Assembly (NCBI GenBank): GCA_013044175.1
Contig: JABEUY010000117.1
Coordinates: 1 to 57,567 of the forward strand
Length of the DNA stretch: 57,567 nt
Direction: 5' to 3'
Source of the DNA: Bacilli bacterium
GTDB lineage: Bacteria > Bacillota > Bacilli > Alicyclobacillales > SLC66
The translations under genes and the position numbers were made by a program. Positions 19,472 to 29,976 of the stretch are shown in pieces. The notes beneath the pieces were generated by a model. That model did no database searches. It saw only the letters and a program-made list of their open reading frames with translations, and was not told where the DNA came from. Numbering within the stretch: the stretch's first letter is position 1; each line of letters opens with the position of its first letter.

Positions 19472-19975
19472 ATGAATGCTAAGCCTGTTTCAGCCTCTCG
19501 TACGATGATGACCGATTTGGTACTGCCTTCGGATGCGAATGTATACGGTACCATTTTTGGCGGAAAGGTCATGGCGTATGTTGATAAAATTGCGAGTATT
19601 ACAGCGATGCGCCATTGCCGGATGCCAGTCGTCACTGCAAGTACAGATAGTTTTAATTTTTTGGCACCCATTCACGTTGGCGAAGCGATTTCTGTTGAAG
19701 CGTTCGTTGCGTGGACACATAACACTTCGATGGAAATTTTCTGTCGGATTGAATGTGAAGATTTAATGACGGGTCAACGTAAAGAAACGGGGACATCGTA
19801 TCTCACGTTCGTCGCGTTAGGTAGCGATGGGAAACCCGCTCTTGTTCCCCCTGTTGAACCAGAGACGGATGAAGAAAAATGGCATTTTGAAACGGCATCG
19901 TTACGAAGAAAGCAACGACTGGCTGCTCGACAGGATCATCGCCAACAGCGGCAAACACGACAATCAGAAACGTAA
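19472..19975 (+). CDS. Acyl-CoA thioesterase, hot-dog fold (YkhA-like)
   Basis: A 167-residue acyl-CoA hydrolase of the YciA/YkhA type. MTDLVLPSDANVYGTIFGGKVMAYVDKIA is the hallmark N-terminal region (residues about 13-41; catalytic Asp within PSDAN), followed by TASTDSFNFLAPIHVGE. The C-terminal 35 residues are hydrophilic and Gln/Arg-rich, apparently a disordered tail. It is preceded closely by the 37-residue membrane peptide and followed 21 bp later by the PASTA gene. Confidence 0.88.
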   Translation: MNAKPVSASRTMMTDLVLPSDANVYGTIFGGKVMAYVDKIASITAMRHCRMPVVTASTDSFNFLAPIHVGEAISVEAFVAWTHNTSMEIFCRIECEDLMTGQRKETGTSYLTFVALGSDGKPALVPPVEPETDEEKWHFETASLRRKQRLAARQDHRQQRQTRQSET

Positions 19976-19996: not shown

Positions 19997-21424
19997 GTGA
20001 TTTCGTTGACCGGCAGATATAAAGCGATCGAGTTAGAGGCGTTAGCATCTGGCTGGCGTGTTGGTTTAGGCACAGATCTCAAGTTGGATCGAAACGTCGT
20101 ACTCGCTGTTCTGTCGCAATCTTCCATCGATAAGCAGATGCTCGATGCATGGTTGCAGTGTCGGTCAACGCTCTCACACCCTTACGTCGCACAATTGCTC
20201 GATATCGCGTTGACTGACCAAGATGTAATTTGTGTTTTTGAATCGGCCAAAATGATACAATTTGGGTTGCCTAATCTTTCTTCAGCGAGTCTTCTTACTG
20301 TGTTTATTCAGATCGTGGAAGGCATGGAGACGCTTTTTCGCAGTGGTATCTCTTCGAACTTCCACATTGGAGAGTTGCTATATGATGGTAAAAAACCATC
20401 GTTGCTTGGCTTGCTTCCCAGGGGAATTTCTGAAGATATTACAGAAAAAGAGATTGTGCAAAATCTTGCCTTATATCTCGGTCATGCTTTAGAGTGGGTT
20501 GTTGTATCAGGCCATGCGATCAGCCATGAGCCCATAGCGCCTGTATGGCAGACTGGACTTGAGCGCTTGTTACGGCACAGTACTACACTGCAGGGCTTTG
20601 GAGATTTGCAAGCATTGCTCAGTGTCATGGTCTCCCAAGATGATATGGTTTTTTCGAATACCTCGTCGGAGGAAGACGAGACCTCGAGAATGCAAAGATC
20701 GAACATGCTCAATTTGCGTTCGCTTCCTGATCGCGAGATGGAAGATACGGCAACTTATGAATTGGATGAGATCGAGTCTTTACGACCACGTATGGTCGGT
20801 AGACTTACTTTTTTTTCAATCGGTATTCTTGTTCTTGTCATCGCAATTCTATTTGGTGGCCAATGGTTGTTGCATGCACAGAAAAGTCCGCAAACGATAG
20901 CAACACCCGTAACTCCGCCTGCGCTTCCTGCTAAAGCAAAAGGAAGTACAAGCAATATAAGCCATAAAGTAGGCTCGACGCAAAATGTTACTTCTCACAA
21001 CCCGACGGATCATTTTACTTCAGTGATTCCAAATGTAGTTTCTAAAAATCTTGCGACTGCAGTTATGCTTTTACAAAAGGCAGGCATAAGTGAAACCGAT
21101 TTGGTCGTCAAATCAATAACCGGTCAAGGTGTATCGGGTGATGTTGCTTCTATCTTGCCATCGGCTGGCTCAAGTTATCAGAAAGGGCAAAGTGTGATTC
21201 TCCAAGTTGATCTTACCTCAGGACAAGAGATCATTCCTTCCATTGTGGGGTTACCACTCAAGACAGTATCCGCAGTTTTATTAGAAAATCATATCCATTA
21301 TTCTTACACGATGATTTCATCAAAAGGTAATGCTATCGGCAATGTTGTCAATCAGTCCCCGAGTGCTTATCAGATTGTTCCAACGAATGCCAAACTCATT
21401 TTCCAAGTTGCTGCTTCCTATTGA
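19997..21424 (+). CDS. Membrane-anchored PASTA protein with degenerate kinase domain (pseudokinase)
   Basis: A 475-residue protein arranged like PrkC/Stk1: cytoplasmic kinase-like region (about 1-225), acidic linker, one transmembrane helix (about 270-292), Ser/Thr-rich spacer and two PASTA domains (about 343-408 and 413-475; IPNVVSKNLATAVMLL and IPSIVGLPLKTVSAVLL). The kinase region aligns by eye (LTGRYKAIE; TDLKLDRNVVLAVLS; LSHPYVAQLLDI) but has lost the glycine loop, the AxK lysine (VVLAVL), the HRD motif (SNFHIGELLY in its place) and DFG. It should therefore not phosphorylate but could bind peptidoglycan fragments through PASTA and signal or scaffold inside. The start is GTG 19997. Confidence 0.75.
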   Translation: MISLTGRYKAIELEALASGWRVGLGTDLKLDRNVVLAVLSQSSIDKQMLDAWLQCRSTLSHPYVAQLLDIALTDQDVICVFESAKMIQFGLPNLSSASLLTVFIQIVEGMETLFRSGISSNFHIGELLYDGKKPSLLGLLPRGISEDITEKEIVQNLALYLGHALEWVVVSGHAISHEPIAPVWQTGLERLLRHSTTLQGFGDLQALLSVMVSQDDMVFSNTSSEEDETSRMQRSNMLNLRSLPDREMEDTATYELDEIESLRPRMVGRLTFFSIGILVLVIAILFGGQWLLHAQKSPQTIATPVTPPALPAKAKGSTSNISHKVGSTQNVTSHNPTDHFTSVIPNVVSKNLATAVMLLQKAGISETDLVVKSITGQGVSGDVASILPSAGSSYQKGQSVILQVDLTSGQEIIPSIVGLPLKTVSAVLLENHIHYSYTMISSKGNAIGNVVNQSPSAYQIVPTNAKLIFQVAASY

Positions 21425-21495: not shown

Positions 21496-23868
21496 ATGAA
21501 TCGAAATCGTTTTTTGTTTTTAGCTCTATCGTTGACTAGTTTTTTTGTCGCCTGCCCTGGAATTGCTGATGCGGCCGTCGCGATGCCAAGTGCGTATAGT
21601 GCGTGGCAGATGCGACTAAAAGGAGATGTTCAATCGACCAGAACGACTCCGCAAAAGTTTTTGGCACGGTACCAAGTGAGATGGTTGGATACAGGTAAAA
21701 CGCAAAATTACTCATCATATAATTCTGCCTTGTCCTTGGTTACAGGGAAACAAGATGTTACGATCACCGATACGACATCAGGTATTGTCATCTATAGTTC
21801 GATAAAACAACCATTTGCTGTGCGTTACGTTACTTTAACTGGGAAATCCATCGGCAATGGTCAGATGACCGATTATACCACCTATGAATTAGCAAGAGCA
21901 GCCGTGACCTCCAAGGCATTCGTCGAAATCATCGATCGCAGTACGGGTGATGTTATTTGGAGTAATATACCTAATTATTGGTTGATTTCTTCAAAATCAA
22001 CCGTGACACAACAAACTTATCAATCGCTCACGCCTGCAATCTCAGGCGCATCTTCGCAGCCCAATACTTCGGTTGATCAAGCCGGTTTAACGCAACCCGT
22101 ATGGACACCTGCTTATGATGTTTTGGTGAATAATCAATTCAGCGGCTCTTTCCTTACTGAGGCGTCAGCACAAGCCTATGCACAAGGGCAGACCAATGCG
22201 CAAGTGATTGATCTTGCAACGGGTAAAGACGTTTGGGATAATCTTGCACGTTACAGCGTGGAACAAAACGGGAATGTTATTCAGCAATTTTCAACGCAAG
22301 CTGCTGCGATGGCTTTTGCAAACACGTTATCTAATGTTACGGTCATAGAAATTGCGAATCAACAAGTGATTTTTACCAATGTTCCAGCATATCTCGTGGA
22401 AGTTTCGGGAAAAATAATCAACTCCTTTGTAACTTTACAAGCTGCTATTATCTATGCACAAACGGTTGCTAACGCAGTGGTTGTCCAAATCAGTAACGGA
22501 CAAACTGTGTGGCAAAAAGGTGATACGCCTCCTTCGAACACGGGTGGTGGCACAAGCGGTGGTACAGGTGGTGGATCTTCTTCCAACACCAATGGAAATC
22601 AACCGCTCATTTATGAGGTTTTTCAATATCAAAAGTTGTTGCAATCATTTCCAACACAAAGTGCGGCTCAAGCGTTTGTGCAATCTTTAAGTGGTGTGCA
22701 AATCATCGATAAATCGACAGGACAAATTTTGTATTCGAATTATCCTTCAACGGTAAAATCGCCGATCGGAGATTATCTTGTCGTGAGAAACGGGATTGCT
22801 GTTGATATCTGGGGATCATCGATTATCCCATTAGCCCCAGCTCCTAGTTTTATGCAGCCGAATTATCAGTACGTATCGCCAGATTTTACGCATTGGTATG
22901 TTTCAACGCCGACAGGGGATAAGTTTGTAGGTACGTGGCAAAATCCTTATCAGACGTTTAATTTAGAAACTGCTTCGACGCTAACTGCATCACAAATCAA
23001 TCAATTTCTTGCGACGCATGCGGTTGCGAGCAGCGTTTTACAAGGAGCGGGTAAGTATTTTATTGAGGCACAAAATGCTTATGGCGTCAATGCACAGTAT
23101 CTTGTTGCGCATGCGATCATCGAATCAGCATGGGGAACATCCTACTTTGCAACGGATCGTAATAATTTATTTGGTTATCGCGCTTACACGAATAATCCCA
23201 ATATGGCGGCGACATTTCGTTCTGTTGAGTACGATATTAATTTTGAAGCGTGGTTTGTTCGCAATTCGTATTTAAGTAGTACTGGCGCCTTTTATAATGG
23301 CGCTAATCTTAATGGTATGAATGTCGATTATGCGACAGGAATATACTGGTCCAATAGCATTGCGCGGATCATGGCAGAGATTGCGACGTATTCTACGCAA
23401 ATCGCGTCACAACCTACATTGCCGGAAACGGGTAATCGTCCGTTTTTTCCCTATCCGAATGGTGCGACAGCGTTAGCCACGACGAACCTAACGGTTTATA
23501 ACCTTCCTGATGATGCACAAGGCGCTTTAATCGAACCGATAGGAACGATTGCGAAAGGTACTGTGTTTTCCGTGCTCGGCGATTCACCAGGATGGGACAA
23601 GGTTCAGTTAAGTAATGGAAAAAGCGGTTTTGTCGATTGGAACCCGGTGAGTCTGCAAAATATGGTTCAGGTCACTGGCATTGATGTTGGTAGTGAACTT
23701 GATGTTCGGTCAGCGCCTGCGACACTCAATGCAACGACGATCGATACGCTCAAGAATGGACAATATCTCGTCGTACTTAAAACGCTCAGTGATGGTTGGG
23801 ATGAAGTTGTTGATTCATCCAATAAAACAGGTTACGTTTCCTCAGCCTATGTACAGGTAATTCATTAA
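21496..23868 (+). CDS. Secreted glucosaminidase with six N-terminal repeats and two SH3 domains
   Basis: A 790-residue predicted peptidoglycan hydrolase. Signal peptide 1-26 (cleavage after GIADA). Residues about 54-416 hold six degenerate repeats of about 45 residues (core: xYxV..G..xxxFxTxxxAxxxAxxxxNxxVIDxxTGxxxWxN) interrupted by a Gly/Ser/Thr/Asn linker (about 345-369). Residues about 520-632 are a LytD/FlgJ-type glucosaminidase with AHAIIESAWGTS carrying the probable catalytic Glu543, and NNLFGYRAY. Two bacterial SH3 domains end the protein (about 659-720 and 725-790). ATG 21496 follows AGGGGAAGG. It is likely secreted and cell-wall associated. Confidence 0.82.
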   Translation: MNRNRFLFLALSLTSFFVACPGIADAAVAMPSAYSAWQMRLKGDVQSTRTTPQKFLARYQVRWLDTGKTQNYSSYNSALSLVTGKQDVTITDTTSGIVIYSSIKQPFAVRYVTLTGKSIGNGQMTDYTTYELARAAVTSKAFVEIIDRSTGDVIWSNIPNYWLISSKSTVTQQTYQSLTPAISGASSQPNTSVDQAGLTQPVWTPAYDVLVNNQFSGSFLTEASAQAYAQGQTNAQVIDLATGKDVWDNLARYSVEQNGNVIQQFSTQAAAMAFANTLSNVTVIEIANQQVIFTNVPAYLVEVSGKIINSFVTLQAAIIYAQTVANAVVVQISNGQTVWQKGDTPPSNTGGGTSGGTGGGSSSNTNGNQPLIYEVFQYQKLLQSFPTQSAAQAFVQSLSGVQIIDKSTGQILYSNYPSTVKSPIGDYLVVRNGIAVDIWGSSIIPLAPAPSFMQPNYQYVSPDFTHWYVSTPTGDKFVGTWQNPYQTFNLETASTLTASQINQFLATHAVASSVLQGAGKYFIEAQNAYGVNAQYLVAHAIIESAWGTSYFATDRNNLFGYRAYTNNPNMAATFRSVEYDINFEAWFVRNSYLSSTGAFYNGANLNGMNVDYATGIYWSNSIARIMAEIATYSTQIASQPTLPETGNRPFFPYPNGATALATTNLTVYNLPDDAQGALIEPIGTIAKGTVFSVLGDSPGWDKVQLSNGKSGFVDWNPVSLQNMVQVTGIDVGSELDVRSAPATLNATTIDTLKNGQYLVVLKTLSDGWDEVVDSSNKTGYVSSAYVQVIH

Positions 23869-23914: not shown

Positions 23915-25138
23915 ATGGAAGAAGCAGTAATGCCATTGCGATGGCGTTGGCCGGTCTATCTCCTGGCAGCCTATCCGATTGTTGATTATTTTATGGGTAT
24001 TTATCCATGGGGGATCATCGGCCATGAATGGGACAAGATCACATTTATTTTGTTCGCCATTTATGCGCTCCGATCTTACATGGTCAATGGTCGTAGGAAG
24101 ATGTATCCAACTTATAAATACATTCTTTTTCTCGCAGTCATCGGATTAGGATACATACTGATGGATGTTGGGTATATGACCGTTGCATTTGCAGGGTACC
24201 AGGTCGATTATATGTACATGTTGCTCGCCTTGACATTACCCTATATCGTTGCTAAAGAAGATATCGTTCCGCTGTTACGATTTGTTGTTCTAACGGGTCT
24301 CTTGATGAGCATGCACGGGGTCTATGAGTACATCATCAAAGCCCCGGTTCCTGCTCAATGGATCCCGATTGGACAAAGCGAAAGAACACGCGTGTACTCT
24401 CTATTTGGAAGTCCTAACATTTTTGGTTCGTATACAGCATTTATTACACCGCTTGCTATCAGTTTCTTTGTTACGGAAAAAGAAAGAGCGCAAAAATTGT
24501 TTTATGGTGCTGCAGCATTGCTTTCGATTGCAACGACCGTTTTCTCCTATACGCGAGGCGCTTGGATTGGTTTGGTGATCGGCATTCTCGTGGTGACTTG
24601 GTTGATCGATAAACGATGGACTTTTGTCGTTATCATTCTCGCCGTATTGTCCACACTTTTCGTTCATTCCATTCAAGTTCGCATCGAGCAGTTTCTGTCG
24701 CCTGTGTATTGGTCACAAACGTTTAACAATGGACGAATTGCACGTTGGATTAATGCTTATGACCAAATGGTCGCCAATCCCTTTTTCGGTGCTGGTCTTG
24801 GTCGTTATGGTGGAGCTATTGCATCTCGTTATTTTGGTGTTATTTATGTCGACGGGTATTATGCAAAAACGCTAGCGGAAACTGGCATTATAGGACTTTT
24901 TGCTTTTGTCGCATTGCTCTTTGCGTACGCACGCGATGTATATCGTATCTGGCGTAAAACGGTTGATCCTCAAATGAAAGTGCTTATTGCAGGTGTCTTT
25001 GCTTCGATTTTAGTCTTGATCGCGCATAATTCGATTGAGAACGTATTTGAAGATTCGGCGATGAATATGTTGTTTTGGTTAGTTGGGACACTCGTTTTGA
25101 TTTACGGTGAAAAAATGGGGGTGGATCGACGTGTTTGA
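23915..25138 (+). CDS. O-antigen ligase/polymerase-like membrane protein (Wzy_C type)
   Basis: A 407-residue polytopic protein (about ten helices) of the O-antigen ligase/WaaL superfamily, enzymes that join or polymerise lipid-linked glycans outside the membrane. The large extracytoplasmic loop follows SYTRGAWIGLVIG and contains NNGRIARWINAYDQMVANPFFGAGLGRYGG, the most conserved part. GAGG (23904-23907) is 7 bases before ATG 23915; ATG 23912 is the alternative. It overlaps the next gene by 8 bp. Gram-positive members are often linked to wall polymer or exopolysaccharide attachment; the substrate here is unknown. Confidence 0.75.
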   Translation: MEEAVMPLRWRWPVYLLAAYPIVDYFMGIYPWGIIGHEWDKITFILFAIYALRSYMVNGRRKMYPTYKYILFLAVIGLGYILMDVGYMTVAFAGYQVDYMYMLLALTLPYIVAKEDIVPLLRFVVLTGLLMSMHGVYEYIIKAPVPAQWIPIGQSERTRVYSLFGSPNIFGSYTAFITPLAISFFVTEKERAQKLFYGAAALLSIATTVFSYTRGAWIGLVIGILVVTWLIDKRWTFVVIILAVLSTLFVHSIQVRIEQFLSPVYWSQTFNNGRIARWINAYDQMVANPFFGAGLGRYGGAIASRYFGVIYVDGYYAKTLAETGIIGLFAFVALLFAYARDVYRIWRKTVDPQMKVLIAGVFASILVLIAHNSIENVFEDSAMNMLFWLVGTLVLIYGEKMGVDRRV

Positions 25139-26792
25139 TTCGCTTGCCAAGCGTTGGATAACGATGCCGTTATTGATCCTTTATTCCTTGTTTGTGATTT
25201 TGTTTTATCAGCTCGTCTTTACGGGTTGGACAACCGAATATTCCTTTTATGGCGTAGCTGGTGTCATTGTTGCTTCGTTAGTATTTATTTTTGCCTATCC
25301 CAAACAGGATCGCAGCATGTTGATTCGCTTTACTTTATTTAGTTTAATGATAAGTTTTGCTCTGGCTAGTTTCGTAGCTGAATCGAACACTTGGCGCATG
25401 ATCGACTATGTGGCGCTCGTTATTTTTGCGGTTATTCTTGGTCGTATCTTTGTGAAAATCAGTATGTTGAAATTACTGGTTGTCATTATCGTAATCAGTT
25501 TATTTCAAGTATGGGTTCCTCTGTCAGACATGGGTCTTCTTTCGGCTTTTTCGATTCGACTTATCGATCACATCGATAGCCCAGACAAACAAGTACCCAG
25601 CATTCCTGTGGCCTTAGTAAACGATCCTAATCGTCCAGGTGTTCAGACGATTATCACGTTACGCGGTCATGCCCCTAAAAAAGGGGAAGTACAGCAATTA
25701 ATAACGATGATGGCGAATGACCCGGCGCAAGCATCGCAAGCGAATGCAGCCGTCGCCGAAATTCAACATTCCTATGATCTTGTTTCAGTTTCTCCACACG
25801 GATCTGGTTTTAAAGAAAAGAGTGCAACGATCGCAGAACTTGCGCAACTCCGTAGTGACCAACTCGGTTTGATCGATTTCCCTTTTACTACTGCTCATTT
25901 TTTATCCATAGGATCTAAAGTACGGATGTATGTCACGCTTTCTCAAAATCCAGGACAAATGTTTACGATGTTGATGAATCCTGGCAGTATGGCTGATGCG
26001 TTGGGTAGACTTAGTCTATCGGTACAACAACAGGTCAGTCAGAACTGGCGAGCACTAACATCTCGAACCGCGGATGTCATTGACGGATTGATGATACAAC
26101 ATGGTCGATTACAAGGTGAATTTAGAGGTAATTCGATCTCGATGCCGACAAATGCTGTCGCGTTACTAGGTGTTTATCCTATTTTACCTAAACAGATCGA
26201 TTCGACACCGCAAGCGGTTTTGGAAGGTAATAATTTTATTCAGATCGTTTCGTTGTCTGCACCGCAAGGAAAAGTTGTGGGTACATTAACGGGCACGTAC
26301 ACGTATCCATTAACGCGAGATATCGTGTTTGGTGATTTGACCGGAAATGGTCAGGATGAACTGATGATCAATACGATTCCGGCGCAGATCGTTCAATTTA
26401 TGGGTATTAATCAGTCGAAACGCTTATGGGTCAGCGGTCAAAGTAGTTTTCGCTTTGAAACGGTTTTTCAAAAGGCAACGGGTGATGAGATCATTGCAAA
26501 TGCTCCGGCAACGATCACGACTTCACCGACGCGCTATCTGGGTGGATACGTCTATCGTAGTGGATCGCTCGTACCGGTATTTCGTGCCTACCATGTTGAT
26601 TTAGTCAGCCTCCATGCAGCGCATGTCACGTCGAGTCAGCAAACGGAATTGCTTACTTCGACCTATGCGCATCAAAAGATCATGCTGTTGGCACCGACAC
26701 GGTTTCCCTGGTTATTGATTGTCGAGATCGTATATGGACTTCTCGTCCTACTTGGGATCGGACGTCGGATTCAAAAGGGGGTTGCGAAATGA
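25131..26792 (+). CDS. Membrane protein with extracytoplasmic FG-GAP-like domain, unknown function
   Basis: A 553-residue protein. About five hydrophobic segments occupy residues 1-150, a long extracytoplasmic region follows (about 150-525), and a last helix (WLLIVEIVYGLLVLLGIG) precedes a basic tail. Near residue 397 DIVFGDLTGNGQDELMI resembles the calcium-binding FG-GAP/VCBS repeat (DxDxNGxxD-like). I recognise no family for the whole. GTG 25131 with GGGGGTGG upstream is preferred; GTG 25107 would add eight residues. It overlaps the preceding gene by 8 bp and the lipoprotein gene by 4 bp, so the three are made together. Confidence 0.6.
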   Translation: MFDSLAKRWITMPLLILYSLFVILFYQLVFTGWTTEYSFYGVAGVIVASLVFIFAYPKQDRSMLIRFTLFSLMISFALASFVAESNTWRMIDYVALVIFAVILGRIFVKISMLKLLVVIIVISLFQVWVPLSDMGLLSAFSIRLIDHIDSPDKQVPSIPVALVNDPNRPGVQTIITLRGHAPKKGEVQQLITMMANDPAQASQANAAVAEIQHSYDLVSVSPHGSGFKEKSATIAELAQLRSDQLGLIDFPFTTAHFLSIGSKVRMYVTLSQNPGQMFTMLMNPGSMADALGRLSLSVQQQVSQNWRALTSRTADVIDGLMIQHGRLQGEFRGNSISMPTNAVALLGVYPILPKQIDSTPQAVLEGNNFIQIVSLSAPQGKVVGTLTGTYTYPLTRDIVFGDLTGNGQDELMINTIPAQIVQFMGINQSKRLWVSGQSSFRFETVFQKATGDEIIANAPATITTSPTRYLGGYVYRSGSLVPVFRAYHVDLVSLHAAHVTSSQQTELLTSTYAHQKIMLLAPTRFPWLLIVEIVYGLLVLLGIGRRIQKGVAK

Positions 26793-27532
26793 AAAAACGC
26801 AACTTGGGGTATCTTGTAACGGCTACTGTAGGTATTACGCTGCTTTCTGGTTGTAATCTCGTTTCGACACCAAAGGCAATTCAGACCCAAGTCGCTACGC
26901 AAACTGTCGACCCTACAGGTTTACAGGCTGTTCTTGCTTCGATCGATACCATGAAAGGTTTATCATCGTTTGAAGTCAAGGCGCAGATTCAAGAAGCAGC
27001 AGGAAAATTCAATCGGCAAGTAGATTACTACGGTTCAATTTTGTTACCCCATACGGTTTATGTGGATGAAACGATCGGTGGTAATGATTATCTAGTCTAT
27101 CAAGATGGAACGTTTTCCTATTATCGCGATAATGGTCATTGGTACCCGATGCAACCATTAACAGCGTTAAAACCATGGGATTCGTTGCGCAAGCTACTCA
27201 CGACGAATCCCCCTAAAGTTGTCGATCAGTTGCCTACGCAAACGGTTGTTTCATGGTTATGTAATGTCTATCAATTCACGACGTCAGCGAGTCCGGTAAT
27301 CGGTGGTTCTTCCTTAACTTCGACTCTAGGTAAAACACCTTCGAAAGCTTTATATACAGTATGGGTCGATGCAACGGATGGTAAATTACGACAAATTGAA
27401 GTCCAGTCAACAATTGGTGTTCCCGAAATTGGTACTGCTTCAATTTCTTCGACAGAATTGATTTTTGGAGAAAATGCAATTAATTCGCTTCCTGTACCTC
27501 AAGATCTTGTGTCTCAGGTCGAAAAACCTTAG
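26789..27532 (+). CDS. Lipoprotein, outer-surface carrier-like (LolA/LppX-type look)
   Basis: A 247-residue predicted lipoprotein: MKKR start, hydrophobic helix and lipobox LLSGC with Cys22. The mature part (STxxGLQAVLASIDTMKGLSSFEVKAQ, then DYYGSILLPHTVYVDE, YQDGTFSYYRDNGHWYP) has alternating beta-strands like lipid/peptide-carrier lipoproteins, but the match is only by appearance. It is last of the three coupled genes (ATGA overlap). Confidence 0.65.
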   Translation: MKKRNLGYLVTATVGITLLSGCNLVSTPKAIQTQVATQTVDPTGLQAVLASIDTMKGLSSFEVKAQIQEAAGKFNRQVDYYGSILLPHTVYVDETIGGNDYLVYQDGTFSYYRDNGHWYPMQPLTALKPWDSLRKLLTTNPPKVVDQLPTQTVVSWLCNVYQFTTSASPVIGGSSLTSTLGKTPSKALYTVWVDATDGKLRQIEVQSTIGVPEIGTASISSTELIFGENAINSLPVPQDLVSQVEKP

Positions 27533-28063: not shown

Positions 28064-28939
28064 TTGAGCATACAATGGTTTCCTGGTCACATGGCGAAAG
28101 CCCGTCGGGAAGTTACAGAAGCACTTAAACTGGTGGATGTCGTCATTGAAATTGTCGATGCACGTCTTCCTGTTTCGAGTCGAAATCCTATGATGGCAGA
28201 AGTAACCCAAAATAAGCCGATTGTTATTGTTTTGGGTAAAGCAGATATGGCAGATGACGGAATGACAGCGTTATTTCGTGACCAGTGGAAAAAAAACTTA
28301 CACGTCCCTGTGGTTGCCGTTGATAATCTTCATGGTCAGGGTATGAATATTCTTATTGAAGCAGCTAAACAAGCGACTGCGGACAAATTTGCGAAAATGG
28401 CGAAGAAAGGGATTCGCCGCAAAACGATTCGTGCTATGGTTGTAGGGATTCCCAATGTCGGTAAATCGACGATGATCAATCGACTGGCTAAACGCAGTGC
28501 AGCGAAAACTGGCGATAAACCTGGCGTAACCAAACAACAACAGTGGATTAAAGTGGGTCAAGAACTCGAATTACTCGATACACCAGGTATCTTATGGCCT
28601 AAGTTTGATGATCGAGATGTGGCACTTCGATTGGCGTGGTCTGGTGCGATCAAATCAACATTATTAGAATCGCAAGAACTCGCACTTGAATTGCTTTCTT
28701 GGTTAAATAAACAGTATCCTCAAGCGTTGCAGAATCGATATCAGTTCTCCTCGATGACGATGACGAGTGCAGAAATGCTGGAAGAAATCGGTGCGAAACG
28801 CGTTGCAAAAAAAGCGCAAGATGTCATCGATGTTGAACGTGCGGCGGAGTTAGTTCTTCGCGACGTACAAACTGGATTGCTAGGAAGAATTACGTTTGAC
28901 GAACTTACTATGCTTGATTCCTTCGGTGATCAAGCATGA
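28064..28939 (+). CDS. rbgA: Ribosome biogenesis GTPase A
   Basis: A circularly permuted GTPase (YlqF) required for a late step of 50S assembly, 291 residues (Bacillus 282). MSIQWFPGHMAKARREV starts the protein. The order is permuted: NKADxxD-like LGKADMADD (G4) first, then GIPNVGKSTMINRL (G1, P-loop) and DTPGILWP (G3). TTG 28064 has AAAGGG upstream. It overlaps rnhB-yraN by 4 bp, so translation is coupled. Confidence 0.96.
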   Translation: MSIQWFPGHMAKARREVTEALKLVDVVIEIVDARLPVSSRNPMMAEVTQNKPIVIVLGKADMADDGMTALFRDQWKKNLHVPVVAVDNLHGQGMNILIEAAKQATADKFAKMAKKGIRRKTIRAMVVGIPNVGKSTMINRLAKRSAAKTGDKPGVTKQQQWIKVGQELELLDTPGILWPKFDDRDVALRLAWSGAIKSTLLESQELALELLSWLNKQYPQALQNRYQFSSMTMTSAEMLEEIGAKRVAKKAQDVIDVERAAELVLRDVQTGLLGRITFDELTMLDSFGDQA

Positions 28940-29976
28940 AGACTGTTCGCTTTTCGCCCAAAAAGTTAGCTTTATTTGAAGAAGTGCTCTTCTTTGATCA
29001 GAGTTTACGCAAATCTGGTCATTCCATACTTTGTGGTGTCGATGAAGCGGGGCGTGGACCTTTAGCAGGACCTGTCGTAGCGGCAGCTGTAGTATTACCT
29101 GATGATGACCAAGTGGAACCGTTTTTTGATTCAAAACAGATGACGCAAAAGCAACGAGAATATGCGTATGACCTTGTACTTCAAAAGGCGATAGCATATG
29201 GTATCGGGATCGTTGATGCAGATGGCATTGATCAAATGAATATTTTACAAGCAACGTTCGTAGCGATGCGTCAAGCGCTTGATCAAATAGAGCAATCTGT
29301 AGATTTGGTTCTGATCGATGGATGTAATTTGCCAGGGATGACAACAGCACAGCGTAAAGTCATTCATGGTGATGCCATGAGTCAGAGCATAGGTGCAGCT
29401 TCTTTGTTAGCAAAAGTGACGAGAGATCGAATCATGCTTCAGTTTGATCAACAATACCCTGAGTATGGCTTTGCAAAACATGTGGGGTATGGTACAAAAG
29501 AGCATGTGGAGGCTTTGCGTACCTTTGGTCCATGTCCGATTCATCGGCGATCTTTTGCACCTGTACGCAATCTCTTCACGGAAAGCGAAAGCGAAAAGAC
29601 GTCAGTTTCAAAACGCATGATTGGTGCTCGTTATGAAAAGCAAGCCGAGCATTATCTTCTCGCAAAAGGTTATCAATGTATTGAAGCGAATTGGCGAACA
29701 CGATATGGTGAAATCGACTTGATCATGCAAGATCAAGATACTTTGGTGTTCGTTGAAGTGCGATATAAGCATAATCATGCGCTAACTGGTATTGAAGATG
29801 CTGCTTTTTCGATCGATCAAAGAAAGCGTGATCAAATTCGACAGATGGCAAATGCCTATTTGGCTTCGCATGAAGGTAAAAAATATCGACAATTCCGCTT
29901 TGACTGTATGCTTTGTACAGAAGATAATGTGCATCGTAATCTTGTTGTTGACCATATTATCGCTGCTTTTGAGTAA
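28936..29976 (+). CDS. rnhB: RNase HII fused to YraN/UPF0102 nuclease-like domain
   Basis: A single 346-residue ORF with two domains. Residues about 15-215 are ribonuclease HII, with GVDEAGRGPLAGP (catalytic Asp/Glu), LIDGCNLPG (Asp) and VTRDRIM (Asp); it removes ribonucleotides from DNA. Residues about 226-346 are a YraN-type domain (GARYEKQAEHYLLAKGY, WRTRYGEIDLI, LVFVEVRYK), whose D..ExR/K pattern matches the restriction-endonuclease-like fold. In Firmicutes the two proteins are usually encoded by separate, often adjacent genes. No stop or frameshift lies between them; the linker (about 215-226) is short and acidic. ATG 28936 overlaps the rbgA stop. Confidence 0.9.
   Translation: MKTVRFSPKKLALFEEVLFFDQSLRKSGHSILCGVDEAGRGPLAGPVVAAAVVLPDDDQVEPFFDSKQMTQKQREYAYDLVLQKAIAYGIGIVDADGIDQMNILQATFVAMRQALDQIEQSVDLVLIDGCNLPGMTTAQRKVIHGDAMSQSIGAASLLAKVTRDRIMLQFDQQYPEYGFAKHVGYGTKEHVEALRTFGPCPIHRRSFAPVRNLFTESESEKTSVSKRMIGARYEKQAEHYLLAKGYQCIEANWRTRYGEIDLIMQDQDTLVFVEVRYKHNHALTGIEDAAFSIDQRKRDQIRQMANAYLASHEGKKYRQFRFDCMLCTEDNVHRNLVVDHIIAAFE

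Follow-up and report, generated by a model that had tools for sequence, protein, structure and literature searches.

The window, the whole 57,567-nucleotide stretch of DNA from a Bacilli bacterium analysed here, encodes a 475-residue protein that looks like a PrkC/Stk1 receptor kinase from its C-terminal part, raising the question of whether its N-terminal half is a kinase and, if it is not a working one, what such a receptor would do. The first-pass annotation had assigned it the PrkC/Stk1 architecture of a kinase-like region, a transmembrane (TM) helix, and two PASTA domains, and all of these parts were found, in the order cytoplasmic kinase fold, TM helix, and extracellular PASTA repeats:

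19997..21424, + strand: PASTA pseudokinase gene, an open reading frame of 475 codons with a GTG start and 16 syntenic orthologs
19997..20647, + strand: degenerate (pseudo)kinase domain, residues 1-217 (hhalign against PrkC, AF2, Foldseek against the PDB)
20657..20797, + strand: disordered acidic juxtamembrane linker, residues 221-267 (full-length AlphaFold model, linker composition)
20801..20878, + strand: TM helix, residues 269-294 approximately (AlphaFold model, hydropathy)
21023..21211, + strand: PASTA domain 1, residues 343-405 (Pfam PF03793)
21218..21418, + strand: PASTA domain 2, residues 408-474 with approximate limits (second PF03793 stretch, strands and helix of the model)

PF03793 matched the protein in two stretches with an E-value of 7.5e-13 (Pfam), and the full-length AlphaFold model contained an N-terminal domain folded over residues 1-213 and a second disordered stretch at residues 296-339. 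NF033483, the NCBIfam model of PASTA kinases, scored only 45.7 bits, where its cut-off is 450, in a match confined to the PASTA part, and the protein has neither the competent kinase domain nor the above-cut-off score of a PASTA Ser/Thr kinase.

Searches with the single sequence left the N-terminal half unassigned. Pfam recognised no domain in it (Pkinase at E=0.095), and phmmer against the PDB did not recognise the kinase domain. The Ssp2 kinase (E 1.5) and PknA (E 2.2 by profile) were weak PDB matches treated as leads only, and 8gaa_A (profile E 0.0089) was set aside as a chance match, being a repetitive chain (C6HR1_4r) without an individually significant stretch. Orthologs were aligned over their full length (alignment A1) and over the N-terminal domain (alignment A2; 16 orthologs, from the genome itself and 15 further genomes). 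Against the kinase domains of 15 canonical PrkC proteins, the A2 profile gave an alignment that spans residues 5-120 and has a score of 46.3 and an E-value of 3.4e-6 (hhalign), in an ungapped register across the first 56 residues; as controls, 40 column-shuffled PrkC alignments scored at most 19.2 and the reversed alignment 10.2. Against YabT-like kinases of the host's bacterial family, the same profile scored only 22.1 in hhalign, near the noise level, which favours descent from the PrkC lineage. AlphaFold on A2 gave a model with a pLDDT of 88.4 and a pTM of 0.87, whose elements follow a kinase-like order of five N-lobe strands with αC, αE, β7-β8, and αF, making both lobes of a Hanks-type fold recognizable; a full activation segment does not fit. 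Foldseek returned 1,973 PDB chains at E≤1e-3, and the best 50 of these 1,973 were all protein kinases. The top TM-score among the matches listed was 0.72, for the pseudokinase domain of MviN (3uqc), and PknB reached 0.69. The fold check that had been proposed for residues 1-225 thus returned the protein-kinase fold and no other, by profile alignment with its controls, structure prediction, and structure search, strongly supporting a degenerate kinase fold.

The positions at which a kinase would carry its catalytic residues are occupied as follows:

20054..20056, + strand: W20, an invariant bulky residue where the glycine-rich loop would be (ortholog alignment)
20105..20107, + strand: A37, at the position of the β3 (VAIK) lysine; Ala, Leu, or Gly in all orthologs (alignment with PrkC)
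20162..20164, + strand: R56, at the position of the αC glutamate; Arg in 16/16 (alignment with PrkC)
20354..20416, + strand: catalytic-loop and DFG equivalent, residues 120-140, without HRD, Lys, Asn, or DFG (model, alignment)

None of the 16 orthologs keeps G17, G18, K37, or E56. A DGW-like motif with an invariant Trp20 (16/16) stands in place of the glycine loop, and the equivalent of HRDxKPxN...DFG reads like FSAGQVLWDGKEPRVLGL, in which the catalytic Asp, the Lys, the Asn, and the metal Asp are absent; neither HRD nor DFG occurs within residues 110-150. The register is secure across the N-lobe, including the β3 lysine, and less certain in the C-lobe, where the profile alignment stops at residue 120 and the exact HRD and DFG columns were placed by the model and the β7-turn-β8 pattern. 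Having lost the VAIK Lys, the HRD Asp, and the DFG Asp, the domain is a pseudokinase. The first-pass claim that every catalytic element (glycine loop, β3 Lys, HRD, and DFG) is lost was borne out, and no alignment restores them. Because these elements are absent in all 16 orthologs, their loss is a stable trait of the family and not a sequencing error.

What the N-lobe keeps is a different set of residues. PrkC conserves 53 positions in its N-lobe, and at eight of them all 16 pseudokinases carry the PrkC residue, namely R7, Y8, D27, L30, R32, V34, S64, and D73 in PrkC numbering, the last being D69 of the window protein. With an offset of +3 to PknB, in which Lys40 and Glu59 form the catalytic pair, R7, L30, and D73 correspond to R10, L33, and D76 of the back-to-back N-lobe dimer; R10 we take to be an interface residue that partners L33 and D76 in PknB structures. 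The three sites lie in the gene as follows:

20015..20020, + strand: R7-Y8, invariant in 16/16; R7 equals PknB R10 (dimer interface; alignment with PrkC)
20084..20086, + strand: L30, invariant; equals PknB L33, the centre of the N-lobe dimer (alignment; L33 mutants in PMC8541300)
20201..20203, + strand: D69, invariant; equals PknB D76 (dimer interface; alignment; D76A in PMC8541300)

All three PknB equivalents, kept in 16/16 orthologs, are among the eight retained residues, for which the probability by chance is about 0.002 in an after-the-fact comparison of two sets that had both already been seen. The control set comprised 12 other kinases from the sampled genomes of the host's bacterial family, mostly YabT-like. 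All 12 keep the β3 Lys, the catalytic Asp, the Lys, the Asn, and the DFG Asp, and none keeps R10 or L33; D76 is kept in 10 of the 12, making it the weakest interface evidence of the three. Judged by their sequences, the two groups appear close to mirror images, the pseudokinases with the interface kept and the chemistry lost, and the control kinases with the chemistry kept and most of the interface lost. Fold stability or homodimerization could alternatively account for the retention of R7, L30, and D69. In PknB and PknD, N-lobe dimerization activates the kinase allosterically (PMC3601408), and L33D and D76A are PknB mutants designed for work on dimerization and on how the kinase is regulated (PMC8541300).

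Set against PrkC, StkP, and PknB (NF033483), the window protein has the same order of parts, from the N-terminal kinase fold through the juxtamembrane linker and single TM helix to the extracellular PASTA domains, and shares with them the N-lobe register and the dimer-interface residues. It differs in that its domain is catalytically bare and shortened (about 217 versus 270 residues), with a 4-residue deletion after αC and no activation loop, in carrying two PASTA domains versus three PF03793 stretches in the PrkC of the same genome, and in being unlinked to prpC. YabT-like kinases of the same bacteria are likewise membrane-anchored and Hanks-type, but they keep the catalytic residues, have lost the PknB-type R10 and L33, and show no PASTA domain.

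Among known pseudokinases, the domain of MviN/MurJ (Rv3910), a member of the ActPs3 group, shares with the window protein full catalytic degradation, a shortened activation segment, membrane anchoring, a cell-wall setting, the N-lobe dimer residues, and a bulky aromatic in the ATP site, the last suggested here by W20. ActPs3 is defined by degraded catalytic motifs, an activation-loop deletion, and a C-terminal TM helix, and PknB phosphorylates the pseudokinase of MviN, which retains an analogous dimer interface (PMC12599244). All three defining features are present in the window protein, a likeness at the level of fold and features. However, the MviN domain sits within a peptidoglycan-synthesis membrane protein, is actinobacterial, lacks PASTA domains, and acts through FhaA. 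The window protein is MviN-like (ActPs3) by fold and anchoring, and a PrkC derivative by architecture and sequence. The marks of ActPs2 (β3 Lys to Arg, HRN, and a long activation-loop insertion) are missing, as the β3 position holds Ala, Leu, or Gly and there is no insertion. EssB/YukC of type VIIb secretion is also a membrane-spanning protein of Bacillota whose kinase domain is degenerate and has a short activation loop, but it has no PASTA domain and belongs to a secretion system; no type VIIb secretion genes occur in the neighbourhood examined, where the neighbours are metabolic and cell-wall genes.

Orthologs were found in 16 of 18 genomes of the host's bacterial family and in none of 41 genomes of its sister family in the same order. 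The two family genomes without the gene (G008 and G017) are 60-73% complete and also lack the flanking thioesterase and glucosaminidase genes, so true loss was rejected, and every family member with an assembled locus keeps the gene. Sampling 399 genomes of the class and 398 of the phylum revealed no ortholog outside the family. Weak out-of-family profile matches (G395, G516, and G584) proved to be ordinary bacterial kinases or an unrelated protein that resembles a kinase, a separate hit in a distant genome (G076) was a chance match to an ABC/CBS transporter, and a scan of genome contigs with the single protein as query returned no relatives.

Two conserved neighbours flank the gene:

19472..19975, + strand: thioesterase (4HBT), upstream, 21 bases before the pseudokinase gene (Pfam, synteny)
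21496..23868, + strand: secreted glucosaminidase with SH3 domains, downstream, with a signal peptide and a likely start at ATG 21496 (Pfam, synteny)

Where contigs allow, the order is conserved as HI0933-like FAD protein, folB, thioesterase, pseudokinase, glucosaminidase/SH3, Wzy-like protein, two unknown proteins, GTPase, and RNase HII. Two proteins without a Pfam match, one in the membrane (25107-26792, +) and the other lipoprotein-like (26789-27532, +), also keep their order family-wide, and at 28936-29976 (+) RNase HII and a following UPF0102 (YraN-like) domain share one open reading frame, an apparent fusion of genes that are often close together. The glucosaminidase/SH3 gene lies downstream of the pseudokinase gene in every relative with a long enough contig, directly so in the genome itself and several relatives; in many others (L090, L095, and L084 among them), asparaginase(-like) and/or thiolase genes intervene. 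For this reason we give less weight to a functional operon of pseudokinase and glucosaminidase. Elsewhere in the genome, unlinked to the pseudokinase gene on the chromosome, an intact rlmN-prpC-prkC-rsgA-rpe cluster encodes a PrkC with all catalytic residues, so the active prkC next to prpC that had been proposed as a check is indeed there. PrkC is present in 21 of 21 genomes searched, whether or not they carry the pseudokinase gene, and its co-occurrence is accordingly weak evidence for a partnership.

Given a receptor that keeps a dimer surface and has lost catalysis, we see roughly an even chance that the protein is a receptor-type PASTA pseudokinase, a duplicate of a PrkC-like kinase, whose N-lobe mediates pairing, either with PrkC or between two copies of the protein, and which sets PrkC activity. 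The role and mechanism that we infer begin with the ancestor of the host's bacterial family, in which a PrkC-like kinase would have been duplicated. Its extracellular PASTA domains would draw the pseudokinase to growth sites, where they would bind peptidoglycan or lipid II and where N-lobe contacts would join its kinase-like domain to PrkC (or to a second copy of itself). The pairing might activate the partner allosterically, as happens in the N-lobe dimers of PknB and PknD, or might titrate PrkC by offering it a non-productive partner. Because the pseudokinase should be unable to transfer phosphate itself, its effect would show in the state of PrkC, in the phosphorylation by PrkC of the acidic juxtamembrane linker, or in both. 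The first-pass idea of a non-catalytic peptidoglycan sensor that may modulate PrkC gains a structural argument from the apparently preserved N-lobe dimer surface. The protein probably serves PrkC as a dedicated partner without enzymatic activity, probably either allosteric or titrating. A narrower version, held more tentatively and at somewhat less than even chances, is a family-specific, dedicated allosteric heterodimer partner comparable to HER3, in which a dead receptor with its own peptidoglycan-sensing ectodomain would set the live PASTA kinase through the N-lobe.

The chief rival, which we consider possible though rather doubtful, is that the protein is a substrate of PrkC and a scaffold, whose phosphorylated juxtamembrane linker would recruit cell-wall proteins in the way that MviN recruits FhaA or the linker of StkP brings in division proteins. 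The linker is disordered, acidic, and Thr/Ser-containing in all 16 orthologs, but its length (28-110 residues) and sequence vary among them. The juxtamembrane domain of StkP is phosphorylated on seven Thr and influences the recruitment of division proteins (PMC12077195), and MviN, itself a PknB substrate, gave the best TM-score among the matches listed. A search of 18 genomes, the host's own and those of 17 relatives, turned up no FHA domain, which makes the MviN-FhaA version of this reading unlikely. Somewhat less probable still is a PrkC-independent membrane scaffold or homodimeric sensor that binds peptidoglycan and localizes or controls the neighbouring secreted glucosaminidase. A homodimer would use the dimer residues equally well, and the glucosaminidase gene does lie downstream wherever the contig reaches; yet the intervening genes, and the synteny of the whole neighbourhood with its housekeeping genes, make this adjacency weak evidence, and the hydrolase is extracellular, leaving contact possible solely via the PASTA part.

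A switch of the kinase-like domain to a different chemistry, on the example of SelO (AMPylation) and SidJ (glutamylation), strikes us as very improbable. Invariant polar residues remain (R7, D27, R32, R56, and D69), but nothing survives of the Gly-loop, β3 Lys, αC Glu, HRD, or DFG, and the site of the Gly-loop holds an invariant Trp. Least credible of all is that a duplicated kinase gene is here in decay and has left a remnant without function. The N-terminal domain is strongly divergent (28-48% identity of the orthologs to the window protein), but purifying selection refutes decay: the kinase-like domain has a dN/dS of 0.05-0.16 in close pairs, frames are intact in 16 genomes of 8 genera, 16 residues of the N-terminal domain are invariant, and the chromosomal position is conserved.

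The preferred reading, a receptor-type pseudokinase that would act on PrkC, bears on a question that is still debated, namely whether ligand- or concentration-driven dimerization couples peptidoglycan binding to the activity of PASTA kinases (PMC3601408). A natural PASTA receptor with a dimer surface and without catalysis separates the two functions and makes the N-lobe dimer model directly testable. It would also lengthen the short list of described bacterial pseudokinases, which are experimentally largely unexplored, by a family of receptors with PASTA domains; in the review of these proteins, PASTA appears solely in the reference list (PMC12599244). The first-pass annotation knew of no described PASTA pseudokinase of this form in Bacilli, and the open-access full-text literature searched contained no PASTA pseudokinase, a description outside open-access texts being possible. 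Since Pfam and NCBIfam miss the fully degenerate domain, similar partners may be overlooked elsewhere.

Two other kinase-like proteins came to light in the survey. In a genome of the same class (G395, L135), a 573-residue protein carries two tandem kinase domains, the second with HREMKPASI/DFS in place of HRD/DFG, and by its sequence is possibly a kinase-pseudokinase pair. A YabT-like kinase-domain protein at G000:C89:10965-11405 (L121, L134) has the catalytic loop YSFGDSKPANIL and a change of DFG to DFA.
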